DNA of 64,000 bases from Aggregatilinea lenta (GTDB lineage: Bacteria; Chloroflexota; Anaerolineae; Aggregatilineales; Aggregatilineaceae), in assembly GCF_003569045.1 (NCBI RefSeq), contig NZ_BFCB01000003.1, positions 2,728,001 to 2,792,000 on the forward strand, written 5' to 3'. The notes under the pieces were generated by a model. The model did no database searches. It had not been told where the DNA came from and saw nothing but the letters and a program-made list of their open reading frames with translations. Both the position numbers and the translations under genes were made by a program. Positions 5,501 to 53,017 of this stretch are shown piece after piece (the stretch's first letter is position 1; each line of letters begins with the position of its first letter).

Positions 5501-5627
5501 GCTGGGGCACGGCTTGGTGGATGTGGGTTACTTCTCGATCAACTTGGCGTTCGTGTTTTTCCTGCTGCTGGCGCTGCTCCCGCACGCCCGGCAGTACGCA
5601 CGTCCGGTTGACCCCGCCGATGAGTGA
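2499..5627 (+). CDS. Glycoside hydrolase-like domain fused to O-antigen ligase-like membrane domain
   Basis: This 1042-residue protein begins with a Sec signal (1-26). Residues about 45-375 resemble the (beta/alpha)8 fold of clan A glycosidases such as GH39/GH5: TWVRQPFLWQDIEP near 79-92, TPAW near 124, and IWDEPN at 167-172, where Glu170 fits the acid/base. At the strand where the nucleophile Glu normally sits (WxxEFGW) the sequence is WGSNFGW, with Asn at 291. A beta-rich linker follows (about 400-520). Then come about a dozen membrane segments (from about 535) with O-antigen ligase/Wzy_C features: SQSRGA near 830, and PHNILLNYW near 945 with the conserved His. Likely an envelope polysaccharide polymerase or ligase with an extracytoplasmic sugar-binding domain. 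Domain families are inferred from motifs only. Confidence 0.7.
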   Translation: MKFKAFILIACAVLVLGSLVAAASAQQQHAIETRGWVNAAETSDLPVRLPLAGVNVELRQYGADELNDQLDKIEQAGFTWVRQPFLWQDIEPEQGQFEWEAYDALVEAVAAHPRLQIVTVLDGTPAWARHELAPDHPYAPPASVSQYADFARAVAERYGGTITQYQIWDEPNITSHWGNLDVRPALYVAMLREAYGAIHGADEDAQVIAAALAPTVETGPRNLSDVLYLRAMYELDAGPYFDAAAGKPYGFDSGPDDRRVDEDVLNFSRLILLREQMVSHGDGTKPLWGSNFGWNALPEGWSGPPSIWGSATADQQLQYTRDAYARALREWPWARGLILQHWDPAAPDDDPVQGFAVAPQIDRWTEAGVPPDPQALIPGLHAVQNPYTTYSENWQFSDLGADATIPDPDAVTPETENTITLTFEGDSLAIPVHRDDYMAYLFVTVDGEPANALPHDRDGNAFLLLTSPERAPETDLVTVADGLPFGVHTATIIQRPYNGDDRWPIAGYAVGSSPDTHTYNVWLIVAGIVGGLALLVGLVTAARLPWRRVRPPAPETLRRSLEWLLGLFVSFVALVGLLLTLNDAVPSLLRRDPPALILTLITAGIASLSPWFVVTLAALVILFVLIFNRPVLGAMLVIFWSAFFLSKLDLLFRAFATVEVYLVITALAVVARLVVEWAKARQAGRVARILPRLTALDWLALAWLVLGAISLAWAAQRSPAVHYFRVIMLEPVVFYAVLRLMRLEHRDLFWLSDAMVFTGLAVAVVGLYLYVTGQSVVEAEQGTRRLIGVYGSPNGVGLYLGRCLPFAAAYAVLPTTLWRRAFGAGSTTIMLLAVLLSQSRGAILLGLPAAAAAMILLWQGRRALLPLAGLAVAAVIALVLLSLALPRLGDLTGDTAFFRTRLWFSSLNLVRENPITGAGLDQFLYQYRSRYLLAEAWQEPNLSVPHNILLNYWVNLGVVGVLAGIAFQAAFWRGIVRLRRYVTDPALLALVLGLAGSMADMLGHGLVDVGYFSINLAFVFFLLLALLPHARQYARPVDPADE

Positions 5628-5669
5628 TGGTGTAATGCAGTCACGTGTAATCAGCCAGGGGAGGACACC

Positions 5670-6215
5670 ATGCAGGCAACCGTAAACGATGTCGTGGTGG
5701 TGCTGGCACAGGGGGACATCACCGATCTGGAGGTGGACGCCATCGTCAACGCGGCCAACTCCGAGCTGATCCTGGGCGCGGGCGTCGCGGGCGCGATCCG
5801 CCGCAAGGGTGGGCCAAGCATCCAGGCGGAGTGCCTCGCCATTGGTTATTGTGAAGTGGGCAGTGCCGTGATCACGGGTGGCGGCAACCTGAAGGCGCGC
5901 CACGTGATCCACGCGGTCGGGCCGCGCATGGGCGAGGGCAGTGAGCCAGGCAAGCTCGCCAGCGCCGTGCGTACCAGCCTCGACTTGGCCGAAGAGAACA
6001 GCCTGCACAGCATCGCGTTCCCCGCCATCTCGACCGGCATCTTCGGTTACCCTCTCGAAGCTTGCGCGGAAGTCATGCTGCGCGTCATCCTCGACTACAC
6101 CTACGAAGACCTGGAAAGTCTGGAGCAGGTGATCGTGTGCCTCTACGACGATCGCGCGTTCGGCATTTTTGAAGCCACATTCCAGCAGAAGTTGGAAGAA
6201 ATCGAATCGGAGTAA
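5670..6215 (+). CDS. Macrodomain protein (ADP-ribose-binding, putative deacylase or hydrolase)
   Basis: The 181-residue protein is a stand-alone macrodomain. The opening GDIT(D) at about 15-18, AIVNAANS (about 25-32), the glycine-rich GAGVAGAI and the later AISTGIFGYP (about 118-127) are the ADP-ribose-binding loops. Family members bind ADP-ribose and many hydrolyse O-acetyl-ADP-ribose or remove ADP-ribose from proteins. An AGGGGAGG-type ribosome site precedes the ATG. It sits between two polysaccharide genes but has no obvious link to them, and no ADP-ribosyltransferase or sirtuin is visible nearby. Confidence 0.88.
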   Translation: MQATVNDVVVVLAQGDITDLEVDAIVNAANSELILGAGVAGAIRRKGGPSIQAECLAIGYCEVGSAVITGGGNLKARHVIHAVGPRMGEGSEPGKLASAVRTSLDLAEENSLHSIAFPAISTGIFGYPLEACAEVMLRVILDYTYEDLESLEQVIVCLYDDRAFGIFEATFQQKLEEIESE

Positions 6216-6242
6216 TCGCCTGCTTTCCGCCTGTTTCAGGCG

Positions 6243-6271
6243 TTGGCGTGCGCTGCAAGTACTGTTACACT
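6243..6271 (+). promoter_or_regulatory. Candidate sigma-70 promoter for the SDR gene
   Basis: TTGGCG (6243-6248), a 17-base spacer and TACACT (6266-6271) lie 47 bases upstream of the ATG at 6318. The geometry matches other candidate promoters in this window (27048, 31736, 16959). Confidence 0.45.
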
Positions 6272-6317
6272 CCTTCTGAACTCATTCGCTACTCACCAAT
6301 CACGGACGAGAGATGCT

Positions 6318-7252
<935 letters not shown>

Positions 7253-7253
<1 letters not shown>

Positions 7254-8764
7254 TGGTCCGCGCCGCCCGCCACGGCTTCGACGCCCGTAAGGCGGCGTGG
7301 CTCGCGCTGGCGCTGCTAGTCGGGCTGGCAGCCGGCACGCTGCCGCTGCCGCTCGTCGTGGCCGTGCTGGGCGCGGCGGCGGTCGGTGTGGCGCTGGCGG
7401 TCGAGCCGGTGCTGGCGCTAGCGCTGATGCTCGGCATCGCGCCGCTGAAAACGCTGATCCAGACCGAGTCGCCGCTGTCGCTGCCGGTGGATGCCGGGCA
7501 GATCCTGTTTGCCGTGGCATTCGGCTTGTGGCTCGTCACACGCGTGCTCTACGATCACCGGCGGACGCTGCCCCGCACGCGCCTGTTCGTGCCGCTGGCG
7601 ATCATCATGCTCGGCTTCGCGCCGTCGCTGTTCGTGGCGCGCTCCGCCGGGGCGTGGGCCTCGGAGATGGTCAAGTGGGCCGAGATGGGACTGCTGGTGG
7701 CGATGGTGCTGGAGATGGGCGAGCAGGGCCGCTGGCGCTGGATCGCGTTCGCCGCCGTGCTGTCCGCCGCGCTGCAGGCGATCATCGGCATCTACGAGTA
7801 CGAGGGTGGCTCCGGCGCGCCGCACCTGTGGATTTCCAACTACATGCACTTCCGCGCGTTCGGCACGTTTGGCCAACCGAACCCGTTCAGCGCGTTTATG
7901 GGGCTGACCGCGCCGCTGGCGTTCGGGCTGGCGTGGGGTCACCTGACGCAGGCGTGGGCGCAGTCGCAGACGCGATCCCGCGAGCATGACGCGTGGCTGC
8001 GGCCCGGTTTGTTGGCGGGGATGTATGCCGCACTGGGGCTGCTCATCCTGGGTGGGCTGATCGTCGCCTGGGGGCGTGGGGCGTGGCTGGGATTTGGCGC
8101 GGCTGCGGGGGTAATGGTATTCTTTGCTCCGCGTCGCCGCCTGTATGCGGTCGTATTGCTGGCTGCCGCTGTGGTGCTGGGTGCCGGACTGTGGTTAATG
8201 CACCTTGTGCCGCCGTCGATTCAAGCGCGCGCTGACAACGCGGTGGACGAATTTGTCGGCTTTCGCGATGTGCGCGCGATGCCGGTCAGCGACGAGAATT
8301 TTGCCATTGTCGAGCGGCTGGCGCACTGGCAGGCCGCGCTGAACATGGCGCGGGCGCATCCCTGGCTCGGCGTCGGGCTGGGTAACTACGAAGCGGCCTA
8401 TAACGACTACCGGGTGCCAAGCTGGCCGCGTCCGCTGGGACACGCGCACAACGACTATCTCAACCTGCTGGCCGAAACGGGCATCGTCGGTTTGACGGCG
8501 TACCTGGCTGGCTGGGTTTTGATCGTGGTCTGGACCATTCGCGCGCTGCGCCAGCAGGACCCGGTACTGCGCGGTCTGGTGTTGGGATTGTTGGGCGTCT
8601 GGGCGCATCTGGCCGTCCACAGCGTGGTCGATAAGCTGTACGTGAATAACCTGTTTCTGCATATCGGTGTGATATTAGGACTGCTGGCGGTGGCCTGGAC
8701 GTACCGGGCGCCGTCGCCAGAGGGAGCACGCATTGCAATCGAAGATGGGACAGGGGAGTATTGA
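7253..8764 (+). CDS. O-antigen ligase/polymerase family membrane protein
   Basis: A 503-residue integral membrane protein with about 12 hydrophobic segments. The long periplasmic loop before the last segments carries HPWLGVGLGNY (about 367-377) and LGHAHNDYLNLLAETG (about 390-405), the Wzy_C signature with the conserved His. The family polymerises or ligates lipid-linked glycans on the outer face of the membrane. It overlaps the SDR gene by one base and is followed by the GtrA gene four bases after its stop. It is the second Wzy-type protein in this cluster, the other being fused to a hydrolase-like domain. Confidence 0.85.
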
Positions 8765-40193: not shown

Positions 40194-40217
40194 GATCCCT
40201 CCCACGCCAGGAACTCA

Positions 40218-40247
40218 GACGGCCCACCTGAGCAGGTGGGTCGTTTT
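40218..40247 (+). terminator. Hairpin at the left island edge
   Basis: CCCACCTG (40223-40230) and CAGGTGGG (40233-40240) with loop AG, followed on the plus strand by TCGTTTTGG. It has the form of a terminator for transcription running leftward-to-rightward out of the rdgB leader, or for tRNA-Phe in the pre-insertion state read on the other strand. Confidence 0.5.
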
Positions 40248-40254
40248 GGTACTA

Positions 40255-40288
40255 TGCCGAGGCCCAGACTTCAACTGGGGACCCTATG
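40255..40288. repeat. attL-like direct repeat: copy of the 3' end of tRNA-Phe
   Basis: Thirty-three of 34 bases are identical to 52945-52978, the 3' end (discriminator base, acceptor, T arm, variable loop) of the intact tRNA-Phe gene, in the same orientation; the only change is C for G at 40272. Identity resumes six bases later for CAGTCA at the same offset. The 5' half of a tRNA is absent, so this is a fragment, as expected for an integration site. Confidence 0.85.
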
Positions 40289-40350
40289 TCCGCCAGTCAG
40301 TGCTTGGCCGGATCTCAGCTTACAGTCTGGCCAACCTGAACGGGATGATT

Positions 40351-41091
40351 TTACCGTTCTTCGGAGGGCTTTGCAGCCGTCCGGTCTGGTGGCTTGTCAG
40401 CACCTTCGGGCTGGGCGTCCTGGTTGTAGTAGTGGTCGGCGGTTGTGCTCGAATCTTCGTGACCCAGGATTGCCTGGGTAACAGTGATCGGTACACCATC
40501 GTCGGCCAGTGACTGTCCCCGCTAGTGGCGGATCGAGTGCGGCCTGTAGGTGATACCCGACACGCCCTTGCTCAATCGTGCGACCATCGTTTGGATCCCC
40601 GCTGAAGTCAGTGGCCCATATCGCTTGCCAGGTGTTGTCCGATTGTTGACGAATACGTACCGGTGAGACGGATCGGGATCGAGTCGGCGGCGGATCATCG
40701 TCCACGGTTGGAGATAAACCACGACGTCGGGAACAGGCGGCAGCCGATTCTCTTTTCCCCCTTTGACCTTCAACACAATCCAGCCCTCGTCCAGATTGAT
40801 GTGGTCGAAGGTGATGTGTGCTATGCCGCCAGCTCGTGCACCGAAATTGCTGAGCAGCGCCATGATGGCGGTGTCACGAGCTGCCGCAAAGGGCTGATGT
40901 TTCGCCGGAGCGGCGCGGATCATATCGACCAGCACCTCTTCGGGAATCGCTTTGCTGATCAGCTCCCGATGCGGGGTCTTCGTATCCAGAAATCGAGGTG
41001 GATTTTCCTGGATGTAGCCCCGCTGGACGCACCAGTTGAAGCAGGCGCGTACGTGTATCCGCGAGATCTCGCAGTCGATGCACCTGGGTTA
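40351..41091 (-). pseudogene. Tyrosine recombinase (integrase) remnant, 5' truncated and with an in-frame TAG
   Basis: Reading from 41088 the frame gives part of the core-binding domain (VRACFNWCVQRGYIQENPP), then the catalytic domain with ARAGGIAHITFDHI (Arg), KVKGGKEN (Lys) and PHSIRH. A TAG at 40522-40524 interrupts the frame right after HSIRH. The same frame continues with SLADDGVPITVTQAILGHED and then STTADHYYNQD, which holds the second His motif and the Tyr nucleophile, to a TAA at 40351. A TAA at 41089-41091 blocks the 5' side and the N-terminal arm domain is missing. The gene is therefore non-functional unless the amber codon is read through. Confidence 0.85.
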
Positions 41092-41203
41092 CTCGACGAC
41101 GTATCATCACATCCTGAAGCTCATCATCGAGGGGTGGCTGGAGCAGCGTGATGGCAAGTTGCTGGTGGTGGGCAGCGAGTGGTACGGGCCAGAAAGAGTC
41201 TAA
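41078..41203 (+). pseudogene. Possible winged-helix gene fragment abutting the integrase remnant
   Basis: A 41-codon frame starting at an ATG inside the integrase end encodes STTYHHILKLIIEGWLEQ followed by a RDGKLLVVGSEWYG wing-like strand, the look of a winged-helix DNA-binding C-terminus. It lacks an upstream half and a convincing ribosome site. It may be the tail of a regulator joined to the integrase by deletion. Confidence 0.35.
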
Positions 41204-41251
41204 TCAGCTGTAATGCATCCGCTTCTCCAGTCCGCATAACTGCATGGTTAT

Positions 41252-41280
41252 CCCTTCCTTCACACGCTGTGAAGGAAGGG
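41252..41280. repeat. Perfect 13-base inverted repeat
   Basis: CCCTTCCTTCACA and TGTGAAGGAAGGG with loop CGC. The CTTCCTTCAC core also occurs in the nested repeat at 44854. The rest of 41204-41472 holds nothing I can identify apart from a small CCCGT/ACGGG hairpin near 41400. Confidence 0.6.
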
Positions 41281-41472
41281 CCAGGGTGTGGAAAGGGCGC
41301 TGCGAGTGGAAGCGCTGGTTCACGCGGCGGTAGACGTGATCGCCTCACGGTCTGGACTTCTACACATCAATTCCTCGCAAAAGACTAGGTGTTCCCCGTC
41401 AAAACGGGCATTTGGTGTATTCTCACGCGAATCAATTTCACTACGTCAACCCGGTTTGTGGGTAATGCATGG

Positions 41473-42018
41473 CTAACCCCGATTTCCCATAACGGCCACA
41501 AGATCCGCCGGGAACGTCGCCGCATCCAGCGGCCCGAACGACCGCCACACCACCACGCCCGCCGGGTCGATCACCAGCGTTTGCGGCAGCGCGATCACCT
41601 GATAGGCTTTCAGTGTGGCATCGTCGGGATCGATCAGTACGGCGTAGCGCATATCGTGCCCGGCGGCGTATGCGGCCACGTCGTCGCGCAGCTCGCGCAG
41701 GTTGATCCCCAGCACGGTCACGTCGCCCGGGTCTGCGAGCGCTTGCAGCACAGGGATCTCCGCTTCACACGGAGCGCACCATGTCGCCCAGAAGTTCACG
41801 ATCACCCATCCGCCGCGCAGCGCGCTCAGCGTGACAGGGTCGCCGTTCAGCGTGTCGAGCGTGAAGTCCGGCGCGATCCACGCCGCGTCGAGCGAATCCG
41901 CGTCATCCGTTGCTGGCGGCGCTGGCGCGACAGACTCCTGCGCCACAGTGTCGCAAGCGGCCAGAACGATCCATACGAAACTGATACTGAGAACACCATA
42001 GATCCACCTCATCCTCAT
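41473..42018 (-). CDS. TlpA/ResA-like thiol-disulfide oxidoreductase, lipoprotein
   Basis: 181 residues from the ATG at 42018, which overlaps the permease stop (ATGA). The signal ends in lipobox VLAAC (Cys at about 22). A thioredoxin fold follows with the active site WATWCAPCE (about 77-85), cis-Pro in ALPQTLVID (about 143-151) and a Redoxin/AhpC-type N-terminus (APDFTLDTLNGDPVTLSAL). It should reduce disulfides or deliver thiols on the outer face of the membrane. As last gene of the ABC set it may keep metal-binding Cys residues reduced, including the CPFC motif of the co-encoded lipoprotein (inference). Confidence 0.88.
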   Translation of the reverse strand: MRMRWIYGVLSISFVWIVLAACDTVAQESVAPAPPATDDADSLDAAWIAPDFTLDTLNGDPVTLSALRGGWVIVNFWATWCAPCEAEIPVLQALADPGDVTVLGINLRELRDDVAAYAAGHDMRYAVLIDPDDATLKAYQVIALPQTLVIDPAGVVVWRSFGPLDAATFPADLVAVMGNRG

Positions 42019-43373
42019 GACGGAAACAGTTTTTCGACCACGTTCACCCGGTAAGCCAGCGCCGCCGGGACCAATCCCGCCAGCGCGCCGACGCCAAGCG
42101 GCAGCGCCCACAGCAGCAGCTCCCACTCCGGCAGCAGGCGCAGCGGGATCGGGATCGCGGACTGCGCCGAATACACGTCCGCGATGATGCGCGCCGCGGC
42201 GTAGCCGATCACGCGCCCCAGGACGGCCCCAAGCAGCGTGACGAACAGCGTCTCGAACAGCACGATACGTACGACATGCGCCGGGCTGCTGCCCAGGCCG
42301 CGCATGACCGCGATCGCGTGCTCCCGCGCCACGGTCGCGTTGTACATCGACAGGAACACCGTCAGCGCGGCGATGCCCAGCACCATGTACCCAATCAGGC
42401 TCAGGATCTCCTGCGCCTGGTCGATCATGTCGAACAGGCCGGTCAGCTCTGCGCCGGGGAAGGCGGCCTGCGCGTCCGTACCGGTATAAAACTCCTGGTA
42501 GATCTGGTTCTGCCCCGCGAAGCTGGCCGGTAGCACCAGCACCGCCGTCACCTGATCCGACGCGCCCAACTGCTCGCCCACGTACGGCGCGAGCGTATCG
42601 TTGGGATCGACCTCGTGCACGTGCCACACGCTCTCGATCTGCGTGAACGCCGCGCCATCGTAGGCCGTGCCGGACGGCTTGAGGATGCCCACCACGGTAT
42701 ACGGCTCGTGATGGTGATCGCTGGCGATGCCTTCCCCGAAGCCGTGCGTCGTCTCGAACTGATCCCCAATATTCAGCCCCAGGTCCTTTGCGGCGGTTGC
42801 ACCCAGCACCGCCTCGAACAAGCCTGCGTCGTGATCGTGACCCTCGTGCCCGGCGTGTTCTTCAGCTTCCTCAAGTTCGCCTTCTTCGGCGTCGTGATCG
42901 GCGTCTTCGGCGTGGTCCTCGTCGGCGTGCTCATCTTCGACCACGGCAAACAGCCGCCCCTCCGCCAGTTGGAACGCGGGCGGCGCGCTGCGCGACGTGC
43001 GCAGCTCGAAGAAATCGTGATACGTGCCAATCAGCCGCGCGCCCGCCACGTTGTCGCCAAACGCCAGCGGCACGGCGAGCTGCACGCGCTCGTCGTGCTC
43101 CAGGTCTTCGTAAATGGTATAGGGGATGTTCCCGATCGGGTCGTCTTGGAGCAAGATGCTGCTCAAGACAAGCTGCTGGCCGCTGCCCTTCGCCCCGATC
43201 ACCATCACGCCGAACGGATCGCTGGCCTGGATGATGCCTTCTTTCGCTCCGTCGGAGAGCATCGCCACCGCCAGCGACAGTGCCAGCGCCAGCCCGATCA
43301 CCAGGGCCGGGATCGCCGTTTGAATCGGGCGCGCGCGCAGGTTGCGCCACGCCACCGCCATGTCGCAAATCAT
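42015..43373 (-). CDS. FtsX/MacB-type ABC transporter permease with His/Asp/Glu-rich loop
   Basis: 452 residues from the ATG at 43373 (ATGA overlap with the ATPase stop); the frame is open much further upstream but only as antisense of the ATPase gene. One membrane segment at about 20-40, a large extracytoplasmic domain, then three segments (about 330-440) give the MacB/LolC topology. Residues 145-184 are almost entirely acidic plus histidine (for example EHADEDHAEDADHDAEEGE, EEHAGHEGHDHD). Such loops bind Zn, Ni, Co or Cu. More His residues occur in SDHHHEPY. Together with the ATPase and the neighbouring lipoprotein this suggests a metal-related transporter, reminiscent of zinc-uptake loci such as Vibrio zrg (recalled, not checked). 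Confidence 0.85.
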   Translation of the reverse strand: MICDMAVAWRNLRARPIQTAIPALVIGLALALSLAVAMLSDGAKEGIIQASDPFGVMVIGAKGSGQQLVLSSILLQDDPIGNIPYTIYEDLEHDERVQLAVPLAFGDNVAGARLIGTYHDFFELRTSRSAPPAFQLAEGRLFAVVEDEHADEDHAEDADHDAEEGELEEAEEHAGHEGHDHDAGLFEAVLGATAAKDLGLNIGDQFETTHGFGEGIASDHHHEPYTVVGILKPSGTAYDGAAFTQIESVWHVHEVDPNDTLAPYVGEQLGASDQVTAVLVLPASFAGQNQIYQEFYTGTDAQAAFPGAELTGLFDMIDQAQEILSLIGYMVLGIAALTVFLSMYNATVAREHAIAVMRGLGSSPAHVVRIVLFETLFVTLLGAVLGRVIGYAAARIIADVYSAQSAIPIPLRLLPEWELLLWALPLGVGALAGLVPAALAYRVNVVEKLFPS

Positions 43374-44086
43374 GCCATCACCTCGGATGCGGCGTACAGC
43401 GGCTCGGCAGCCTGCGCGATCAGCCGTCCGTGCTCCAGATCGACCGCCAGCGGGAAGCGCGCCGCCAGCGCGGGATCGTGGCTGGCGACGATCAGCGACG
43501 CGCCGTTTTCCCGGCAGATCGCCTGCACCAGATCCATCACGGTCTGCGCGGCCCCGGCGTCCAGCGCAGCAGTCGGCTCGTCGGCCAGCAGCACGTCCGG
43601 CCTGTTCGCCAGCGCGCGCGCCACGGCGACCCGTAGCCGCTGCCCCGTGCTCATTTGCGCCGGGCGGTAATGGGCGTACTCGGCCAGCCCGACGCGCCCC
43701 AGCAGGTCGCGCGCGTCGCGTTTCCACTGGCCCGCCGGATATTTGCGCGCGAACGCCATCGGCATCACCACGTTTTCCAGCGCGGTCAGCGGCGCGAGTA
43801 GATAATGTGTCTGGAAGATGTAGCCGGTGTGCCGCGCGCGGAACCGGTCGCGCTCGCCGGGGGCCAGCGCGTACAGCTTCTGCCCGTCATAGGTCACCGT
43901 GCCCTCGGTCGGCGCGAGCAGCCCGGCGGCGATGTTGAACAGCGTCGTTTTGCCGCTGCCGCTCACGCCGCGCAGCAGGATCTGCTGCCCGCCGTCTACC
44001 TCCCACCGCGCGATGTCGAGCACGGTGCGCGAGTCGCCTGCGGGGCTTTTATAGACGTGCCGCAGGTCCGCAAACGTCACGTTCAT
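43370..44086 (-). CDS. ABC transporter ATP-binding protein (LolD/MacB type)
   Basis: 238 residues: Walker A GVSGSGKT (about 40-47), Q-loop FQTHYLL (about 91-97), signature MSTGQRLRVAVARAL (STGQR in place of SGGQ), Walker B VLLADEPTAALD and switch His in VASHD. It powers the FtsX-type permease encoded next, from which it differs by a four-base overlap; it also overlaps the upstream lipoprotein gene by four bases. Confidence 0.94.
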   Translation of the reverse strand: MNVTFADLRHVYKSPAGDSRTVLDIARWEVDGGQQILLRGVSGSGKTTLFNIAAGLLAPTEGTVTYDGQKLYALAPGERDRFRARHTGYIFQTHYLLAPLTALENVVMPMAFARKYPAGQWKRDARDLLGRVGLAEYAHYRPAQMSTGQRLRVAVARALANRPDVLLADEPTAALDAGAAQTVMDLVQAICRENGASLIVASHDPALAARFPLAVDLEHGRLIAQAAEPLYAASEVMA

Positions 44087-44820
44087 CCGTCCAGCACCTC
44101 GATTTCATCTGCATACAGGCGCACCAGGCTGACCATGCCCGACGACGCATCGACCGACGACCCGACCTCCATCCGCCCCGTGATCCGCACCGGGTAGCGG
44201 TTGTTGAACAGGGTCGCTTCCGGCAGATACACCAGCGCGATCCTGTCCGGCCAGTCGGCGTCGGTGCTGCAAAACGGGCACATCGCCAGCGGGATCTGCG
44301 TCAGCACGAAAAAGTCGAGCTTGGGCTTCAGCGGCGGCGCGATGTAGCCCTCCATCACCACGTCCTGCCCGTCCAGCGACACCAGCTTGTCCGACAGAAT
44401 CCAGCCGCGCCGCATGTCGAAGCGCTCGTAGAACTCGTCGAACGTCATCGCCACAGGGAACGCATCGAACTGCACCGGTGCCTGGGCGGTGGGCTGGTAG
44501 GCGGCGTCCGTTGCGGCGGCGATCCGTCGCGCCTCGCCTTCGTCCAGCTCCACGCTCAGCGGCGTGGACGTCGGACCGGATGCGGCCTCGGTCACGTCGG
44601 GCGGCAGCATAGGCGTGGCGGACGGTGTGGCCGTCAGCGTGGGGGTAGCGGTACCCTGTGCCGGAGCGTCTGTTGCCGGCGCGGGCGTGGCAGATGCATT
44701 TTGCGCGACTGCCGAGGGCAGGGGCGTCACACGCCGGATGCCGCCCCCGTCGCTGCCGCACCCCGCCAGAGACATTCCGGCAGCGACCAGGGCCGCAATC
44801 CATATCAGTCGGGTCTTCAC
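44083..44820 (-). CDS. Lipoprotein with Cys-containing domain, DUF3299-like
   Basis: 245 residues from a GTG at 44820 with TGAGGAG upstream; this start opens a lipoprotein signal with lipobox SLAGC. A Thr/Pro/Ala-rich linker (about 30-85) precedes a compact domain: DGQDVVMEGYIAPP, DFFVLTQIPLAMCPFCSTDA and PVRITGRMEV. The pattern of strand, GYxxPP, then Cys-rich loop resembles DUF3299 proteins, which often accompany MacB-like ABC genes. The CPFC pair could bind metal. Overlap with the ATPase gene indicates one operon. Confidence 0.7.
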   Translation of the reverse strand: MKTRLIWIAALVAAGMSLAGCGSDGGGIRRVTPLPSAVAQNASATPAPATDAPAQGTATPTLTATPSATPMLPPDVTEAASGPTSTPLSVELDEGEARRIAAATDAAYQPTAQAPVQFDAFPVAMTFDEFYERFDMRRGWILSDKLVSLDGQDVVMEGYIAPPLKPKLDFFVLTQIPLAMCPFCSTDADWPDRIALVYLPEATLFNNRYPVRITGRMEVGSSVDASSGMVSLVRLYADEIEVLDG

Positions 44821-44853
44821 ACCATCACTCCTCAATGCACTCGCGCGCTGCGC

Positions 44854-44919
44854 GCTTCCTTCACGTGACGGCGCGCACCGGCGGTTTGGTGGCGGGTGCG
44901 CGCCCATAGTCAAGGAAGC
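44854..44919. repeat. Nested inverted repeat between phoA-like and lipoprotein genes
   Basis: Inner arms GGCGCGCACC (44870-44879) and GGTGCGCGCC (44895-44904) are a perfect ten-base pair with a 15-base loop. Outer arms GCTTCCTT (44854-44861) and AAGGAAGC (44912-44919) enclose them. There is no T-run on either strand, so it is not a classic terminator; it may be a REP-like element or an mRNA-stabilising hairpin. Confidence 0.6.
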
Positions 44920-44924
44920 TCGGA

Positions 44925-46754
44925 CTATTCGGCGGCGGTCATCGGGTCCAGGCCCAGCGCCGCAGCCATGCCGAAGAACACGTCGGTGTTATCGAGCACG
45001 TGGCCGAAGTACGCCGCGCCGGGGCCGGTCGCGTAGACGGGCACGTCCTGCAGCGTGTGCACGCTCGTGCTCTCGCCCGCGGGCAGATTGCCGCTCATGG
45101 TGATGCCGTTTTCGTCATCAGTGGGGTTGTCCACGCACACGCCCTGGTCGTCGCAGATCGCGGGCGCGCGGTACACCGGGCTTACCTGGAAGTCTTCGGT
45201 GAAATCGGGATGATCGACCTTGCCCTGCGCCAGCGTCACGGAGACGTCCCAGCTATCCGGGAAGAAATCGCCGTTTTCGTCCACGTAGGTCGGGAACCCG
45301 GCGTTCTGGTACACGCCGATCGCCTCGCGGCGGCCTGCGTCGTCACTCGCGGCGTTGAACGCTTCCACGTCCACCGTGCCGTACACGTCATAGCCGTGGC
45401 CGTGGTCGGAGGTGACGATGATCAGCGTGTCGGGCGCGTTGGCCTGGACCCATTCCACCGTCGCGGCGATGGCGCGGTCGAACTCGATCGCGTCCGCGAT
45501 GGCGCGGTCCCAGTCCATGGGGTGCTCGGCCTTGTCCACGCTGGCCGCTTCCACTTCCAGGTAGAACCCGTTGGGGTTCTGGTTCAGCACGTCCAGCGCC
45601 GCCATCGTCATATCGACCAGCCCCGGCTGATCGGTGAACTGGCCCAGGTTGTCGGTGTAGACGTTGCGGTCCAGCCACACGCTCATGTCGCTCGGCGTGA
45701 AGAACCCGGCCAGGTGATCGGGCGTGCCGTCGGCCAGCGCCGCGTCCAGTTCGGTTGCCGTCGTCACGATGGTGTACCCGGCGTCTTCGTATTCGGTGAA
45801 CAGGTCGCGGTCGTCCTGGCGGCGCGAGCCTTCCGCCGACTGCGGCAGCAAATAGCTTGCCCCGCCGCCCAGCAGCACTTCGGGCACCAGCCCGTCGTCG
45901 AGGATCTGCGCGGCATACGCGGCGCGGCTTGCGCCGCTGCGGTCACGGCCATAGCCCCACACGCCGTTGGGCGTCGCGTCGGTGAAGTCGGAGGTGGTCA
46001 CGATGCCGATGGACATCCCGCGCACGCGCTTCGCCACGTAAGCGAACTTTTCCACGCGCGGATCGTCCAGCTTGTCGGGCGAGGAGTCAGCATACACGCC
46101 ATTGGCGTTCACGGATGACTTGTGGCCGGTGTTGTAGGCGCTGATACTGTTGGCGCTGTCGGTGATGATCGAGTCCACGCCGGAGGTGTGCAGCAGGCCG
46201 ATTTCCTCGAAGCTCTCGAAGCTCAGGTTGTCGTTATACGTGCCCTGTTCCATTCCGCGCGAAACCAGCCGCGTGGCCGTATACAGGCCAACGTTGCCGC
46301 CGTCCGCGATGAACAGGATCACGTTCTTCGCCGTGCCGTCGGTGATCGGCTCGCGGACCGTGTACGCGACGCTGGTGGTCTCGCCCCCGGCGACCACATC
46401 CACTGTCACGGTGCCCGGCTCGGTGAACATCACGTCGCGCCAGATCTGCGACACGACAGGCATCGGGCTTTCCTCGGAACCGGCGTCCCAGACCTCTTCG
46501 ACCAGGTCCGTGCCGAAGAACGTGGCTGCGTCCTCGCCGTTAACCGTCACGGCGAAGTCTTCCGGCAGCGCATCGGCGTGCACTTCTACGCGCAGATCAA
46601 AGTAGACCCCCGGCAGGAATTGGGCCTGATTAACGGGCAGAATCACGACGTCGGGCGCGTCCTGCGCCGCGACTTTGTGCGCGCCGGACGGCGCAATGAG
46701 AGGTAAGACCAATGTGAGGACGAGCAGGAGCGTTAAAAATCGAAACGAACGCAT
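44925..46754 (-). CDS. Alkaline phosphatase (PhoA superfamily), exported
   Basis: 609 residues. A Sec signal (about 1-31) is followed by a ~100-residue beta domain and the phosphatase domain: ILFIADGGNVG (metal Asp), TDSANSISAYNTGHKSSVNA (nucleophile Ser in DSA, then TGxK), VEAASVDKAEHPMD (metal Glu/Asp/His) and TSDHGHG (metal Asp/His). Some positions differ from E. coli PhoA, for example ADGG for GDGM and SVDKAEH for the usual RIDHAxH. It should cleave phosphomonoesters outside the cell using Zn/Mg. It is upstream of, and codirectional with, the metal-type ABC set; zinc supply to this enzyme is a possible link (inference). Confidence 0.9.
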   Translation of the reverse strand: MRSFRFLTLLLVLTLVLPLIAPSGAHKVAAQDAPDVVILPVNQAQFLPGVYFDLRVEVHADALPEDFAVTVNGEDAATFFGTDLVEEVWDAGSEESPMPVVSQIWRDVMFTEPGTVTVDVVAGGETTSVAYTVREPITDGTAKNVILFIADGGNVGLYTATRLVSRGMEQGTYNDNLSFESFEEIGLLHTSGVDSIITDSANSISAYNTGHKSSVNANGVYADSSPDKLDDPRVEKFAYVAKRVRGMSIGIVTTSDFTDATPNGVWGYGRDRSGASRAAYAAQILDDGLVPEVLLGGGASYLLPQSAEGSRRQDDRDLFTEYEDAGYTIVTTATELDAALADGTPDHLAGFFTPSDMSVWLDRNVYTDNLGQFTDQPGLVDMTMAALDVLNQNPNGFYLEVEAASVDKAEHPMDWDRAIADAIEFDRAIAATVEWVQANAPDTLIIVTSDHGHGYDVYGTVDVEAFNAASDDAGRREAIGVYQNAGFPTYVDENGDFFPDSWDVSVTLAQGKVDHPDFTEDFQVSPVYRAPAICDDQGVCVDNPTDDENGITMSGNLPAGESTSVHTLQDVPVYATGPGAAYFGHVLDNTDVFFGMAAALGLDPMTAAE

Positions 46755-46883
46755 GGCTGTATCTCCTTGGTGGGCATGGGATAGGGCATGCCAAAGGCCA
46801 TTTACTGCATAGATTAGAAGGGCTGCGAGCGAAAGACTGGTAAAGGACAGTGTAAAAACTGCGCAAATCAGGATGAATCGTTT

Positions 46884-46909
46884 TTAACGTCCATTAAAAG
46901 TATTTATCG
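46884..46909. promoter_or_regulatory. Pho-box-like direct repeats upstream of the alkaline phosphatase
   Basis: TTAACG (46884), TTAAAA (46894) and TTATCG (46904) start at exact ten-base intervals, recalling the TT(A/C/T)A(A/C/T)A repeats bound by PhoP-type regulators. They read on the plus strand, 130-155 bases upstream of the phosphatase start. A TATAAT occurs on the plus strand at 46923-46928. The remaining part of 46755-47057 shows nothing else. Confidence 0.3.
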
Positions 46910-47057
46910 AGGACCTCTGTTTTATAATCGACTAGAACTCCGGAGCAGGTGACATTCCGATGAGCAATGACCGGCGCATCAACCTCCGGTCGGGGCGGCC
47001 TTCCAGCGTAACATGTGGTCGTTGGATTGGACCGCAGCAACCGAGAGGAGCAGTACC

Positions 47058-47422
47058 ATGAGCATCACGCTACGCGATTACCCCGAAGACTTTCACCTGG
47101 CGCCGAGCGCCACGTCGAACGAAGAACGCCTGACCATCGACCGCCCGGACTGCCCGAATTACCACAACACCACGTACAACTTGTCCAAGGCGTCGCCTGC
47201 GTCGCGCGCCCGGACTCAACGCATCCTGACGGCGTAGCCTGGCACTACTTCGGGCTGACGCCTAACGGCTGGCGGGGCTACGCTTTCACGGCGCCGGAGC
47301 CGGGATTGACGCGCGATGAGCGTCTGGAGATGCTCGACGAGGTGCGCGCGCATATCCAGGCGGAAGTGATCCGGCTGTACGCGGAGCGAGGGTACAAGGT
47401 GATCTGTCAAGTACCCAATTAG
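47058..47422 (+). pseudogene. Frameshifted hypothetical gene
   Basis: The ATG at 47058 has a GAGGAG ribosome site. Its frame encodes MSITLRDYPEDFHLAPSATS and continues to about 47215 before meeting a stop at 47237. A different frame then carries coding-like sequence (DGVAWHYFGLTPNGWRGYAF, then LTRDERLEMLDEVRAHIQAE) to 47422. Joined, the two give a plausible ~120-residue soluble protein of unknown family. A sequencing error is the main alternative to a real frameshift near 47190-47220. Confidence 0.55.
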
Positions 47423-47952
47423 TGAAGACAAGTGTCTGAAACATTTGCGCAGCGTAAATGGCTGGCGGCATTTTGAGTGCAGCGGAGATACGGCTGTGAT
47501 AAGACACACTATTTTGCGAAATGAGGTGGGATGTGAAACAATGCATCCTGGCAAAGACTTAGCTTGTGGACGGTGAACGGTCACAGTTGATGTAACATAA
47601 TCACCTAAGGGCTAGAATAGGCGAGGACACACACCCATAGAGGGCGATTGATCGATGGTATGATTTGCACTGAACCAGGGCTAGGTGATCGGGCGGAACG
47701 GATGGAACGGGTGGATCTCGGTGAGTGGCTTCTGAGAGATCATTCAACGGTTAGGCCTGCAAGTTAGTTTCTTTTTTCCGGTAGGCTGCTCGATTAGAGC
47801 GTGTTTGCATAGTGGATCAAAGCCGTATCCTTGTCTCTCAAGACGCCGGGCTACAGCGGGACGGCTCCCCTTTCCCTCCGGGGGAGACGGGGCCAGGGGA
47901 TGAGGGATTACGTACACACTTTTAGAGACATAGGGGAACCACACGACCGACA
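47423..47952. other. 530-base stretch without a gene
   Basis: No convincing coding region. Around 47866-47906 there is a C/G-rich palindromic segment (CCCCTTTCCCTCCGGGGGAG followed by GGGGCCAGGGGATGAGGG), a type of sequence that recurs as dispersed repeats in some large bacterial genomes; copy number cannot be judged here. The promoter of the CheB-CheR gene should lie in this stretch, but no clear boxes were found. Confidence 0.4.
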
Positions 47953-50928
47953 ATGATCAAGGAACAGAATAACCACCCCGACGAAGTACAACCACCAACG
48001 CCCTCATCTCCTGAAAATCAGGGAGCAGATGATGGCAGGGACAGCTTTCCCATTATTGGGATAGGGGCCTCGGCAGGTGGGTTATATGCACTGCAAGTGT
48101 TTCTTGACAATATGCCAGCCGACACTGGGATGGCCTTTGTGATCGTGCAGCATCTGGATCCCAATCACGAGAGCATCCTGGCCGAGCTTCTGCAACACCA
48201 TACCCCCATGCGCGTTTTACAGGTCAAGGATGGTATGCGAGTTGAACCCAACAACGTGTATGTGGTGCCGCCCAACCGGGACATGGCCCTCTTCAACGGC
48301 ACGTTGATCTTGACCGCGATCGATGCGCATGATGGATTGCGACTGCCGATTGATTTCCTGTTTCGTTCGCTGGCCGAAGATCAGGGCCAACATGCCATTG
48401 GCATTGTTCTTTCCGGGACCGGCACCGATGGCACGCTTGGCCTCGAGACTATTCGCGGTGAGGGCGGGATGGCAATCGCCCAGGATCCTGCATCAGCAAA
48501 ATTCGATGGTATGCCGCGCAGCGCGATTACCAAAGGACTGGCAGACTATATTTTGCCACCTGAAAAGATGCCTGCGCAATTGATCGAGTACGTCCACCAA
48601 CTGTTCACCCTTCAGACTATTCGTCAATCTCCGCCCTCAATGGAAGATCCTGAAGCACTGCAGCGTGTCTTTATGCTGCTGCGCCGGCATTCCAAACACG
48701 ATTTTTCGCTCTACAAACAAAACACGATCCATCGTCAACTCGAACGCCGTATGGCCGTTAATCGGATTGAGAACATGGCGAATTACGCCCAGTTTGTCCA
48801 ACAATCCCCCCATGAGTTGGATACGCTGTTCCAGGAACTGCTCATTGGGGTCACTCGTTTCTTCCGTGATCGAGAGGTGTTCGAGAGCCTGAACCAGCAC
48901 GCTGTTGCCTCCCTCTTCAAGGCCCGGCAGCCTGACCAACCCATCCGGGTATGGGTGCCCGGCTGTGCCACCGGCGAAGAAGCTTACTCGATTGCCATCC
49001 TGATTCGAGAACAAATGAGCGCACTGGGACAGGAATGGGAAACCCAAATATTCGCCACCGACATCAACGAGGAGTCCATTGCAACAGCTCGACGGGGGCG
49101 CTTTCCCGATACCATTGCTGCCGACATTACGCCGGAACGACTGCAGAAATTTTTCGTCACAGACGGCAAGACCTATCAGATATCAAAATCTATCCGCGAA
49201 ATGGTGGTCTTTGCGGTCCACAGCATCATCAAGGATCCACCATTTTCCAATATGGATTTGATCAGTTGCCGCAACCTGTTGATCTATCTAGGACCTGCGT
49301 TGCAGAAAAAAATCATCCCGATGTTTCATTATGCTTTGAAGCCGGGCGGCTTTCTGCTGCTGGGCAACTCGGAAACCCTGGGAGAGTTCGGCAGCTTCTT
49401 CGACGCGGTGGATCACAAGGCCCGGCTGTTCCAGCGGCAACGGGATGAGACGATCCCACACCGAGCGCTGGAGTTCGCTATGCCGCAGTCAGCGACCCAA
49501 GAAACCCGGAGGTTTCCCCACCGGCACGAGAAGGAACCTGACCTCGGTCGATTAGTCGACAAAGTGCTGTTAGAGCGCTTCGTGCCGGCCTGTGTCGTAA
49601 TCGATGAACACAGTAACATTCTCTATTTCCACGGCAAAACAGGTCAGTACCTGGAACCGAGCAGCGGTGCCGCGAGTTTGAACCTGCTGCGAATGGCGCG
49701 CGCCAGTCTGCGAATCCCCTTGGGCGTTGCCGTGCGTCAAGCCATCGCGCAGCAGCGGCACATCACCCATGAAAACATTCATATGGAAACCGAAGATGGC
49801 GCTCAGATTATCAAAGTGTCGGTCCAACCGGTGGCAGACGCGCTCCTGAAAACCGCTCTTTTTCTGGTTACTTTTGAGGTTGTAGCTCCCGATTTAGAAC
49901 CGGAAGAAGCCATCAATGGAGCTGTTGACATGACCGACTCGAGCGCTCAACGAGTGAAGCAGTTGGAACAGGAATTACAATCGACCAGGCAGTACTTACA
50001 AACGACCATTGAAGAACTGGAAACCACGAACGAGGAACTCAGATCGACGAACGAAGAATTACAGTCGGCCAATGAGGAGTTGCAGAGTACCAACGAAGAA
50101 GTCGAAACGTCCCAAGAAGAATTACAGTCGGTCAACGAAGAACTGGTGACCGTCAATACCGAGCTTCAGAGCAAAATTGAAGAATTGACGGTCGCCAATA
50201 ACGATCTGAACAATTTGCTCGCTAATATCGATGTCGGGATAGTGTTCATGGATTTGAACCTGCATGTGCAGCGGTTCAATCCGTCCATGCGTCAAATTGT
50301 TAACTTGATTGAAACAGATATTGGACGACCGATTAGCGATATTGTAATCAATCTGGTATACAATGATCTGGTCAGCGATGCGCGCCGTGTGTTGGATACT
50401 CTGATCCCAAAAGAGATCGAAGTTCAGACCACGGACGATCGCTGGTACGTGATGCGCATCAGCCCTTATCGCACCTTAGAAAACGCGATTGACGGTCTGG
50501 TAGTGGTATTCATCGACGTCACGGAACAAAAAAGGGCCGGACAGGCGGCCCGCGAGGCGCGCGAATTCGCTGAGAGTATCGTGGACACCATCCGGGAATC
50601 CCTGATCGTGTTGGGTGCGGATCAGCGGGTGCTCTCGGCTAACCGGTCATTTTACGAAACCTTCCACATGACGCCTGAGGAAACCGAAGGGCAGTCGCTC
50701 TTCGACATCGGCCAAGGGGCGTGGGATATTCCGCGCTTGCACGAATTGTTGGAGCAAGTCCTTCCAGATGACGCGAGTTTCACCGATATCGTTGTGGAAC
50801 ACGATTTCCAAAACATTGGACGGCGAGCTTTGATTTTCAATGCCAAACAGATTCATGAACAAATTACCGAACGACGGTTGATACTGTTGGCCATCGAGGA
50901 TATCACGGGGAGAGAATACCAGCCCTGA
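47953..50928 (+). CDS. CheB-CheR-PAS multidomain chemotaxis-type protein
   Basis: 991 residues, in order: CheB methylesterase domain (about 32-220; [10 protein letters not shown] with Ser40, [14 protein letters not shown]); CheR N-terminal and SAM-dependent methyltransferase domains (about 240-495; [32 protein letters not shown]); a region of about 150 residues; a strongly heptad-repeated coiled coil (about 665-745, many repeats of ELxSTNEEL); and two PAS domains (about 745-865, 870-985). It would methylate and demethylate glutamates of a sensor and sense a small ligand. It ends without a kinase domain; the next gene supplies one. GC content is visibly lower than in the chromosomal genes. Confidence 0.93.
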
Positions 50929-50977
50929 TTTAGCCTCGGCGCAGACAGCACATCCAACCATTGTGGACAGGTAACAC

Positions 50978-52258
50978 ATGGGCAGCCAGCGCAAAGATAA
51001 GTTTGCCGATCTGCGAGAACGGGCTGAGCGCATGCTGGCGGATCAATCCGAGGTTCTCGATGAAGCTCAGGCAGATAAGCTTGCGCACTTGCTGCATGAA
51101 CTGCACGTTCACCAGCTTGAATTGGAGATGCAGAATGACGAGCTGCACCGCGCGCAGATCGAGCTAGAAGCGTCCCATCGCAATTACCTTGAATTGTATG
51201 ATCTTGCGCCGGTGGGCTACTTCACCTTAGACAAGACTGGACTGATAACACAGGCCAATCTCACATGTGCGGCTCTGCTTGGTGTGACGCGAACCCAGCT
51301 CATTAACCAGTCTTTTTCGCAGTATGTGTTCGCCGATGATCAAGATGCCTATTATTTCTTCAAAAAGGGACTCCTTGAAGCTGTTTCGACGCAATCCTGC
51401 GAACTCAGATTGGCGACCGAGACCGATCTGCCGGTCTACGTAAAATTAGACGGTGTCACGGGAATAGACAGCGCCCAAGAAATCACCCATATGCGGATTG
51501 TCATGAGCGATATTTCCGCTCACAAACGGGCCGAGGAACAGGTTCTCGCCCTGGCTGTCGAAAGAGAAAAGATCGACATTCTCAAGACTTTTCTGGAGAA
51601 TGCGGCTCACAACCTCAGAACACCGCTTGCCGTCCTAAAAACATACTTATACTTACTTGAACAACCTCAATCGCATGATCACCAGCAATCCCGTCTCAGC
51701 ATCATGAAAAAGCAGGTCGACCGGCTGACGAATTTGCTGGAAAACATGTTGGCCCTGCAGCGAATGAATGAATTGGCAGGCTTCGAGTTTGATTATCTCG
51801 ACCTCAATGCGTTGGTAGGAAGTATTATTGAGGATAAAGAGGATCTGGCCGAACAGAAGGGATTAACCTGTACATTTCATCGTGATGCAAACTTGCCCCA
51901 GGTATGGGCCGATCGCGCTTATCTTAGTTCCGCGATATCGAATTTAGTTATGAACGCGCTGCAATACACCCCGGCTGGTGGAGAGGTTCTGGTCTGGACA
52001 GCCCAAAAAGGCGCGAACGCAGAAATCTCCTTGAAAGATACTGGCATTGGGATCAGCGACACTGATCGTCCACATATATTCGAGCGTTTCTTCCGCGCGA
52101 ACTTGGCTATCAATACGCACGAATATGGCACCGGGTTAGGGTTATCGATCGCCGAGAAAATTGTTAAATTCCATCGAGGCACCATTGAAGTCGAAAGCGA
52201 GCTTGGCAAAGGCAGTACCTTCCGAGTCTGTTTGCCCATCGAGCCTGGCAAAACATAG
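50978..52258 (+). CDS. PAS-domain sensor histidine kinase
   Basis: 426 residues, no membrane segment. A helical N-terminus (about 1-65), one PAS domain (about 70-185; LYDLAPVGYFTLDKTGLI), then the HisKA domain with phospho-acceptor His in NAAHNLRTPLAVL (about 210) and the HATPase domain with the N box (LVMNALQYT), G1 (DTGIGIS) and G2 (GTGLGLSIA). It follows the CheB-CheR-PAS gene by 49 bases and shares its lower GC, so the pair probably arrived together. No response regulator is within the island. Confidence 0.93.
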   Translation: MGSQRKDKFADLRERAERMLADQSEVLDEAQADKLAHLLHELHVHQLELEMQNDELHRAQIELEASHRNYLELYDLAPVGYFTLDKTGLITQANLTCAALLGVTRTQLINQSFSQYVFADDQDAYYFFKKGLLEAVSTQSCELRLATETDLPVYVKLDGVTGIDSAQEITHMRIVMSDISAHKRAEEQVLALAVEREKIDILKTFLENAAHNLRTPLAVLKTYLYLLEQPQSHDHQQSRLSIMKKQVDRLTNLLENMLALQRMNELAGFEFDYLDLNALVGSIIEDKEDLAEQKGLTCTFHRDANLPQVWADRAYLSSAISNLVMNALQYTPAGGEVLVWTAQKGANAEISLKDTGIGISDTDRPHIFERFFRANLAINTHEYGTGLGLSIAEKIVKFHRGTIEVESELGKGSTFRVCLPIEPGKT

Positions 52259-52319
52259 GATATTCCCCTGAGATTACCCTTGCAAAGACCTATGAAGCAG
52301 CAAGTTGCCAATCTGCATT

Positions 52320-52670
52320 TTAGTTTTGCTTCAAATCATGCGGTCGCCCACTGCGCCGCGAGCGCCCCGGCCTGCTCCAGCACGGTCTTCGTCGCGGCGT
52401 CCTGCAGATCGGGCGGATACCGTACTTGCGCAGGAAGCGCTTCACCAGCACGCGCATCTTCGCCCGCGCCGTTTGCTTAACCGTCCAATCGATAGTCGCG
52501 TTGCGGCGCACGTGCTTGACCAGCTCGGTCGCAACGACGGCCAGCTCCTTCTGCCCCATGACGTCCAGCGCGCTCTGATTCTGCGCCAGGGCGTCGTAGT
52601 AGGCCAACTCTTCGTCAGAAAGGCCCATCTCCTCCCCGCGACGCGCCGCCTGGTGGCGTTACGCAGAACG
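52320..52670 (-). pseudogene. HsdR C-terminal fragment (type I restriction endonuclease)
   Basis: From about 52665 the minus strand encodes RRGEEMGLSDEELAYYDAL, then VMGQKELAVVATELVKHV and TIDWTVKQTARAKMRVLVKR with FLRKYGI. This is the conserved C-terminal helical region of HsdR proteins (DUF3387-like). A TAA precedes it, the first ~900 residues are absent and the last codons lose homology after ICRTPRR. It is a relic near the right end of the island; no hsdM or hsdS is present. The rest of 52259-52319 shows nothing. Confidence 0.8.
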
Positions 52671-52763
52671 CCTTTGCTGCGGCTGAACACCCAAGCTGAT
52701 TTTCCACTTCTGATTGGTACTAACTTTGGGGACTTTACAATGCGATTGCCCTGGGGTAAGGAA

Positions 52764-52850
52764 CAAACCAACCGCAGTTTTATGGCTTGCACTTTGCAGG
52801 CCATACAAACAAATCGGCTTATCTGCGGTTACAGATAAGCCGTTGGTTTG
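52764..52850. repeat. Set of interlocking inverted repeats
   Basis: A perfect 11-base hairpin (CGGCTTATCTG at 52815-52825, CAGATAAGCCG at 52832-52842) sits beside two further pairings: AACCGCAG (52770-52777) with CTGCGGTT (52823-52830), and CAAACCAAC (52764-52772) with GTTGGTTTG (52842-52850). The alternatives exclude each other in part. It may be a small transposon remnant or a terminator-like structure close to the tRNA. Confidence 0.55.
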
Positions 52851-52944
52851 CGCACATTAACAACTTCAGACTCTCAAGAAATTGGTCCGTGCGCTGCTTA
52901 CTTTCACGTCCCCAACCGGTCTAGTTAAGGGACATCCTAGAGAG

Positions 52945-53017
52945 TGCCGAGGCCCAGACTTGAACTGGGGACCCTATGATTTTCAGTCATATGCTCTACC
53001 AGCTGAGCTACCTCGGC
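52945..53017 (-). tRNA. tRNA-Phe (anticodon GAA)
   Basis: A complete 73-base cloverleaf on the minus strand: acceptor stem GCCGAGG with CCTCGGC, D arm GCTC/GAGC, anticodon stem-loop TATGA-CTGAAAA-TCATA with GAA at the anticodon, T arm CCCAG-TTCAAGT-CTGGG, and discriminator A. No CCA is encoded. It lies 50 bases past the crtB stop. Its 3' 34 bases are duplicated at 40255. Confidence 0.96.

Follow-up and report, generated by a model that had tools for sequence, protein, structure and literature searches.

A decayed island at the tRNA-Phe gene of Aggregatilinea lenta, very probably left by integrase-mediated insertion

The genes lying between two copies of the 3' end of a tRNA-Phe gene in Aggregatilinea lenta very probably constitute a decayed, tRNA-Phe-targeted island left by integrase-mediated insertion. 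We found them in a stretch of 64,000 nucleotides (contig NZ_BFCB01000003.1, positions 2,728,001 to 2,792,000), which we call the window and whose own numbering is used below unless a contig is named. Islands associated with tRNA genes use the 3' end of the tRNA as target and duplicate its tail at their far end; they have an integrase at one end, mosaic accessory cargo, and mobility genes that have decayed. A preliminary description of the window had proposed such an island, 12.7 kb long, at this place, and that reading is supported by the repeat of the tRNA tail, by the flanks of the two copies, by a homologous integrase at the same tRNA gene in another genus, and by a sister element elsewhere in the same genome. 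The features are listed in Table 1.

Table 1. Features of the island and its ends, in window coordinates
Feature	Position	Strand	Evidence or remark
Native terminator hairpin (in relatives directly 3' of tRNA-Phe, at the end of the AOR gene)	40217-40249	+	Folding
Displaced tRNA-Phe 3' end, read as the far attachment site	40255-40288	-	33/34 identical to 52945-52978
Tyrosine integrase relic, ~85 N-terminal residues missing	40411-41064	-	PF00589, E 6e-12
LexA-like helix-turn-helix gene, last 46 codons, fused to the integrase relic	41057-41203	+	DNA identity to contigs C5 and C2
TlpA/ResA-like thioredoxin-fold lipoprotein	41473-42018	-	PF00578/PF08534
FtsX/MacB-like permease with His/Asp/Glu-rich insert	42015-43373	-	PF02687, PF12704
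LolD-like ABC ATPase	43370-44086	-	PF00005; TIGR02211 below its cut-off
Predicted lipoprotein, orf276	44083-44913	-	Beside ABC ATPase and phosphatase also in G025
Alkaline phosphatase (PhoA family)	44925-46754	-	PF00245, E 1e-65
Decayed gene; homologue elsewhere in the genome, on contig C2	46947-47422	+	68% DNA identity
CheB-CheR-PAS fusion protein	47953-50928	+	PF01339, PF01739, PF13596
PAS histidine kinase, forming a pair with CheB-CheR	50978-52258	+	PF02518, PF00512, PF00989
HsdR C-terminal relic	52320-52628	-	PF11867, E 4e-28; PADLOC REase_I, E 6e-19
Intact tRNA-Phe(GAA), read as the integration target	52944-53017	-	ARAGORN

The duplication of the 34-base tail, claimed earlier from the letters of the window, was confirmed: the two copies lie in direct orientation and differ at a single base, 40272. 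When positions 40200-40400 were searched against the entire 6.2-Mb genome, the matches were the query itself and 2780945-2780978, which is window 52945-52978 (E 4e-9). A search with the tRNA as query returned the same two places. Thus there is no third copy of the tail in the genome, and the concern that it might recur many times elsewhere did not materialize. ARAGORN predicts a single tRNA-Phe(GAA) gene in the window. The mismatch at 40272 falls in the T-loop, and because the tRNAs of the relatives read carry the base of the intact gene there, the change lies in the left copy.

An independent check on the insertion comes from the sequence flanking the tRNA gene in relatives. The closest genomes compared come from the same family but from different genera, and several are incomplete. 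Where their contigs span the site, the gene order is rdgB (-), AOR (aldehyde:ferredoxin oxidoreductase, +), tRNA-Phe (-). These genes are directly consecutive in G005, G009, G013, G015 and G017, while in G002 and G012 one extra gene, Na+/H+-antiporter-like and named from sequence only, stands ahead of tRNA-Phe after rdgB-AOR. In these relatives a terminator hairpin directly follows the 3' end of tRNA-Phe. The window has its hairpin beside the left tail copy instead, where positions 40206-40254 fold at -25.3 kcal/mol (z -4.3), and there is none in the flank of the intact tRNA-Phe (-7.8, z +0.6). Equivalent hairpins occupy the same place in G002, G005, G009, G013 and G017, and also beside the left copy in G006, a genome of another genus (JACRBK01). 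G006 shows the same exchange of flanks: the tail copy there has a hairpin (z -3.9), and the intact tRNA-Phe has none (z -0.1). A displaced native 3' flank is what integration at the 3' half of a tRNA gene predicts, and integration is supported accordingly in both genomes.

None of the relatives examined, all from other genera of the family, carries the island genes at the tRNA-Phe site. At the level of the family, the phosphatase, ABC and CheB genes are thus not the conserved core block there that, by the preliminary description, would have spoken against an island. Its further expectation, that crtB, tRNA-Phe and rdgB would be neighbors without the insert, held in part. The crtB gene does adjoin tRNA-Phe in G002 and G003, but in relatives AOR intervenes between rdgB and tRNA-Phe, so these two were not ancestral neighbors. 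In the family AOR is a conserved neighbor of rdgB. Here it is missing between 40205 and 40255, although its terminator seems to remain; a search of the whole genome gave no match to the gene, while the same query matches relatives at 76-83%. With the island removed, the neighborhood would read rdgB, (AOR lost), tRNA-Phe, crtB. Because AOR was lost nearby, other rearrangements must have touched this locus, and its history is more complicated than an island placed between rdgB and tRNA-Phe.

In G001, G002, G003 and G012 the interval from AOR to tRNA-Phe holds other, unrelated genes, and no tail copy accompanies them; two examples are locus L047 (3680-10217) in G001 and locus L081 (2204-9090) in G003, where the genes lie between the AOR terminator and tRNA-Phe. 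The interval has thus taken insertions repeatedly and accepts them in general. A 30-base tRNA-like match in G004 was set aside, as no integrase of this kind was found nearby.

The tyrosine-integrase relic reported just inside the left copy is genuine (Table 1). It lies about 120 bases inside the tail copy. G006 has an intact homologue of 343 residues, whose residues 86-304 the relic matches at 55% identity. The reading frame of the relic is incomplete: the N-terminus is gone, and an in-frame TAG stands at 40522-40524. In G006 the integrase gene sits about 70 bases inside that genome's own tail copy of tRNA-Phe; next come an O-like/DnaD-like rep gene, parA and parB. The tail copy and the intact tRNA-Phe of G006 are on different contigs. 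A tree built from 18 integrases joins the enzyme of the window to that of G006 (support 99/98). Integrases adjoining tRNA-Pro form a separate clade: three in G001 (JAHDLB01), one in G008, and one on contig C5 of the A. lenta genome. No tRNA-Pro tail copies were found beside the G001 and G008 elements within their contigs. The identity blocks of the tail repeats in the window and in G006 have a common end point at the 3' side of the anticodon stem, which fits one common crossover site. At the other end of the island, positions 52259-52943 have no clear match to the right end of the element in G006, so that the tRNA alone marks the right terminus.

The 20-kb contig C5 holds a sister element (locus L219, G000:C5:1-20000, where G000 is this genome) at 1783-8641, beside a tRNA-Pro(TGG) gene. 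Its genes are int, rep, an orf, parA, parB and HNH, with a LexA-like gene at the far end; the integrase is split over two frames, and the full LexA-like gene matches PF01726 below the cut-off of that family. In the window, the integrase relic is joined at ~41060 to the end of such a LexA-like gene: positions 41057-41194 (138 bp) are 92% identical to G000:C5:1789-1926 and 95% identical to G000:C2:1860538-1860675, and the relative orientation of int and the LexA-like gene is the same in C5 and in the window. If the C5 element is taken as the model, the two ends of the backbone would have been joined by a deletion of ~6 kb, and the island probably once carried rep and par genes. The element would also have been related to partition-carrying prophages. 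As judged from its integrase, the island should be unable to excise by its own enzyme and is predicted to be immobile.

The cargo is a mosaic of two gene clusters that look intact. Against a background of 20 stretches of 20 kb from the genome, taken in steps of 500 bases (GC 0.632, sd 0.052 per 500 bases), the CheB-CheR-PAS and histidine-kinase genes (47953-52258) have a GC content of 0.517 and a tetranucleotide distance of 0.434, beyond the background 95th percentile of 0.316. The phosphatase/ABC/TlpA cluster (41473-46754) is host-like, with a GC content of 0.664 and a distance of 0.172. In other words, the earlier remark that two of the genes are clearly lower in GC is correct, but composition does not mark the other cargo as atypical.

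Judging from family names, the phosphatase/ABC/TlpA cluster is likely to serve phosphate scavenging together with metal- or lipoprotein-related transport, and the CheB-CheR/kinase pair is likely to serve signaling. A search of 17 further genomes from the family, some of them incomplete, gave no match to the alkaline phosphatase gene; it is present in G025 and G021, which belong to other families. In G025 the permease, ATPase, orf276 and phosphatase genes are collinear with those of the window at 48-59% identity, and the CheB-CheR/kinase pair is found there and in G011. Within the cluster that contains the phosphatase gene, the His/Asp/Glu-rich stretch of the FtsX-like permease suggests metal binding. 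The layout of the ABC cargo resembles zrgBCE (PMC9817125), which, with the His-rich insert, gave a lead toward zinc transport and only a lead. Zrg-type zinc ABC systems have a DUF3299 protein beside the ABC genes; orf276 has no DUF3299 match, or any other family match, in Pfam, and we rejected the zinc reading on the missing marker. The HsdR relic noted near the right end is real, as both Pfam and PADLOC recognize it. The decayed gene between the two cargo parts aligns with C2:1907579-1907996 over 423 bp, and its frame is broken in the window. Positions 46969-47036 (68 bp) are in addition 88% identical to C2:1854901-1854968, the start of an otherwise unrelated ORF; this is perhaps a segment shared between mobile elements.

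These results can be assembled into the following course of events. An element with a tyrosine integrase of the Anaerolineae clade that uses tRNA-Phe would have recombined its attP with the tRNA-Phe gene in its 3' half, bringing along a new, identical 3' half that left the tRNA-Phe at 52944-53017 intact. The host's original 3' half would have been pushed to the far end together with its native terminator (40217-40288). Later, a backbone deletion would have removed the N-terminus of int, rep, parA, parB and the start of the LexA-like gene, and the integrase would have gained its stop codon; with these losses the island would no longer move by itself. What remains between the ends, the phosphatase/ABC/TlpA cluster and the CheB-CheR/kinase pair, may have been gathered in more than one step. 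The repeat, the exchange of flanks, the homology and decay of the integrase and the LexA-like fusion are shown directly; we infer the order of events and that the cargo came with the element or after it.

The timing of the insertion can be read in part from the anticodon stem, in which the pairing TATGA/TCATA occurs, among the tRNA-Phe genes read, in this genome alone. Of this stem the duplicated block includes the 3' strand but not the 5' strand, and in the left copy the 3' strand is the one that pairs with this genome's 5' strand (the TATG allele). Because that allele is unique to this genome, integration would postdate it and be separate from the event in G006, although gene conversion between the two tRNA copies could imitate the match.

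Four points count against insertion as the origin of the island: the closest genomes are from other genera, the phosphatase/ABC half is host-like, the right ends in the window and G006 lack clear homology, and the loss of AOR nearby shows that the locus was rearranged in other ways too. Host-like composition in half of the enclosed genes is also what would be expected if there had been no integration at all and part of the tRNA had been duplicated, by chance or locally, within an ordinary block of core genes. We find that account very hard to credit: the flanks are exchanged, an integrase relic is present, G006 has a homologous element, and relatives lack the block at this site. It is also improbable, if less extremely so, that this genome and G006 share one old insertion, made in their common ancestor and passed down vertically, which then decayed here. 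The same integrase clade does occupy the same tRNA in both genomes, and the integrase identity of 55% is not far below the 63% of rdgB. Against this, the tail copy matches the TATG allele of this genome, which no other tRNA-Phe read here has, and so would be younger than that allele, barring gene conversion; neither the radSAM nor the rdgB tree, weak as they are, joins the two genomes; and the site is unoccupied in other genera.

A closer contender concerns the cargo and is a variant of integrase-mediated insertion rather than its opposite. The insertion may have brought a short element, or one now mostly deleted and represented by the 0.9 kb at the left end, with the cargo clusters added later by recombination at the permissive place between AOR and tRNA-Phe. 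Its chances are, in our view, only slightly short of even. The two halves of the cargo differ sharply in composition, the ABC-phosphatase genes and the CheB-CheR/kinase pair exist elsewhere as separate units, and the unrelated genes of G001, G002, G003 and G012 reached the same place without a tail copy. All of the cargo nevertheless lies between the two tRNA copies, as the cargo of one insertion would.

Integrase-mediated insertion leaves this region resembling known tRNA islands with tyrosine integrases, such as the pheV island of E. coli (PMC11537424), in its 3' target, tail duplication, integrase, mosaic cargo and decay. It differs from them in its host, a member of the Chloroflexota (Anaerolineae), and in that the integrase sits at the end with the displaced tail. 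No conjugation genes were found: Pfam and NCBIfam detected no relaxase, coupling protein or secretion gene among the ten island ORFs. The integrase clade is distant from those in plasmid and phage collections, with less than 30% identity among the matches listed. The int-rep-parA-parB elements of the Anaerolineae metagenome-assembled genomes G006 and G001 and of contig C5 share with the island their integrase homology and a tRNA gene as target; they have a divergent integrase beside a rep/par block, with a LexA-like gene at the far end in C5. Unlike them, the window copy lacks rep, parA and parB and keeps gene fragments only, and the G001, G008 and C5 integrases adjoin tRNA-Pro. With partition-carrying temperate phages (phage-plasmids) these elements share an O-like replication initiator, ParA and ParB. 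Pfam found no structural or packaging genes in the window island, and no structural phage genes were found among the G006 and C5 proteins tested; a terminase (large subunit) occurs only in a related IMG/VR contig, L176, together with an integrase and parA. A search of a literature library listed no paper on the int-rep-par arrangement in Chloroflexota.

The kind of event seen here, an immobile tRNA-targeted island, is ordinary and known; the integrase family is little known. The boundaries and history of an island are thereby fixed in an under-studied phylum, in which the same integrase clade struck tRNA-Phe independently in two genera. For annotation, the phosphatase/ABC and CheB-CheR/kinase genes are best read as accessory. 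The more interesting lead is the integrase lineage itself, with its Phe and Pro targets and a terminase-bearing viral contig. Tentatively, and with somewhat less than even confidence, we suggest an undescribed Anaerolineae lineage (int, O-like rep, parA, parB, LexA-like), possibly of temperate phages, whose integrase clades are split between tRNA-Phe and tRNA-Pro and for which the tRNA-Phe site by rdgB-AOR is a recurrent hotspot across genera. G006 and G001 offer intact relatives for the study of integration at tRNA-Phe and tRNA-Pro, respectively.

Some further loci touch on these subjects. In G021 (locus L134, 6231-8214) a 43%-identical alkaline phosphatase gene adjoins a tRNA-Pro gene. G006 contains a second element (locus L222, contig G006:C447), whose rep shares 87% identity with the rep of the tRNA-Phe element and whose integrase is different: only its first 30 residues closely resemble the G006 tRNA-Phe integrase (63%), a pattern for which an integrase exchange is a possible explanation.
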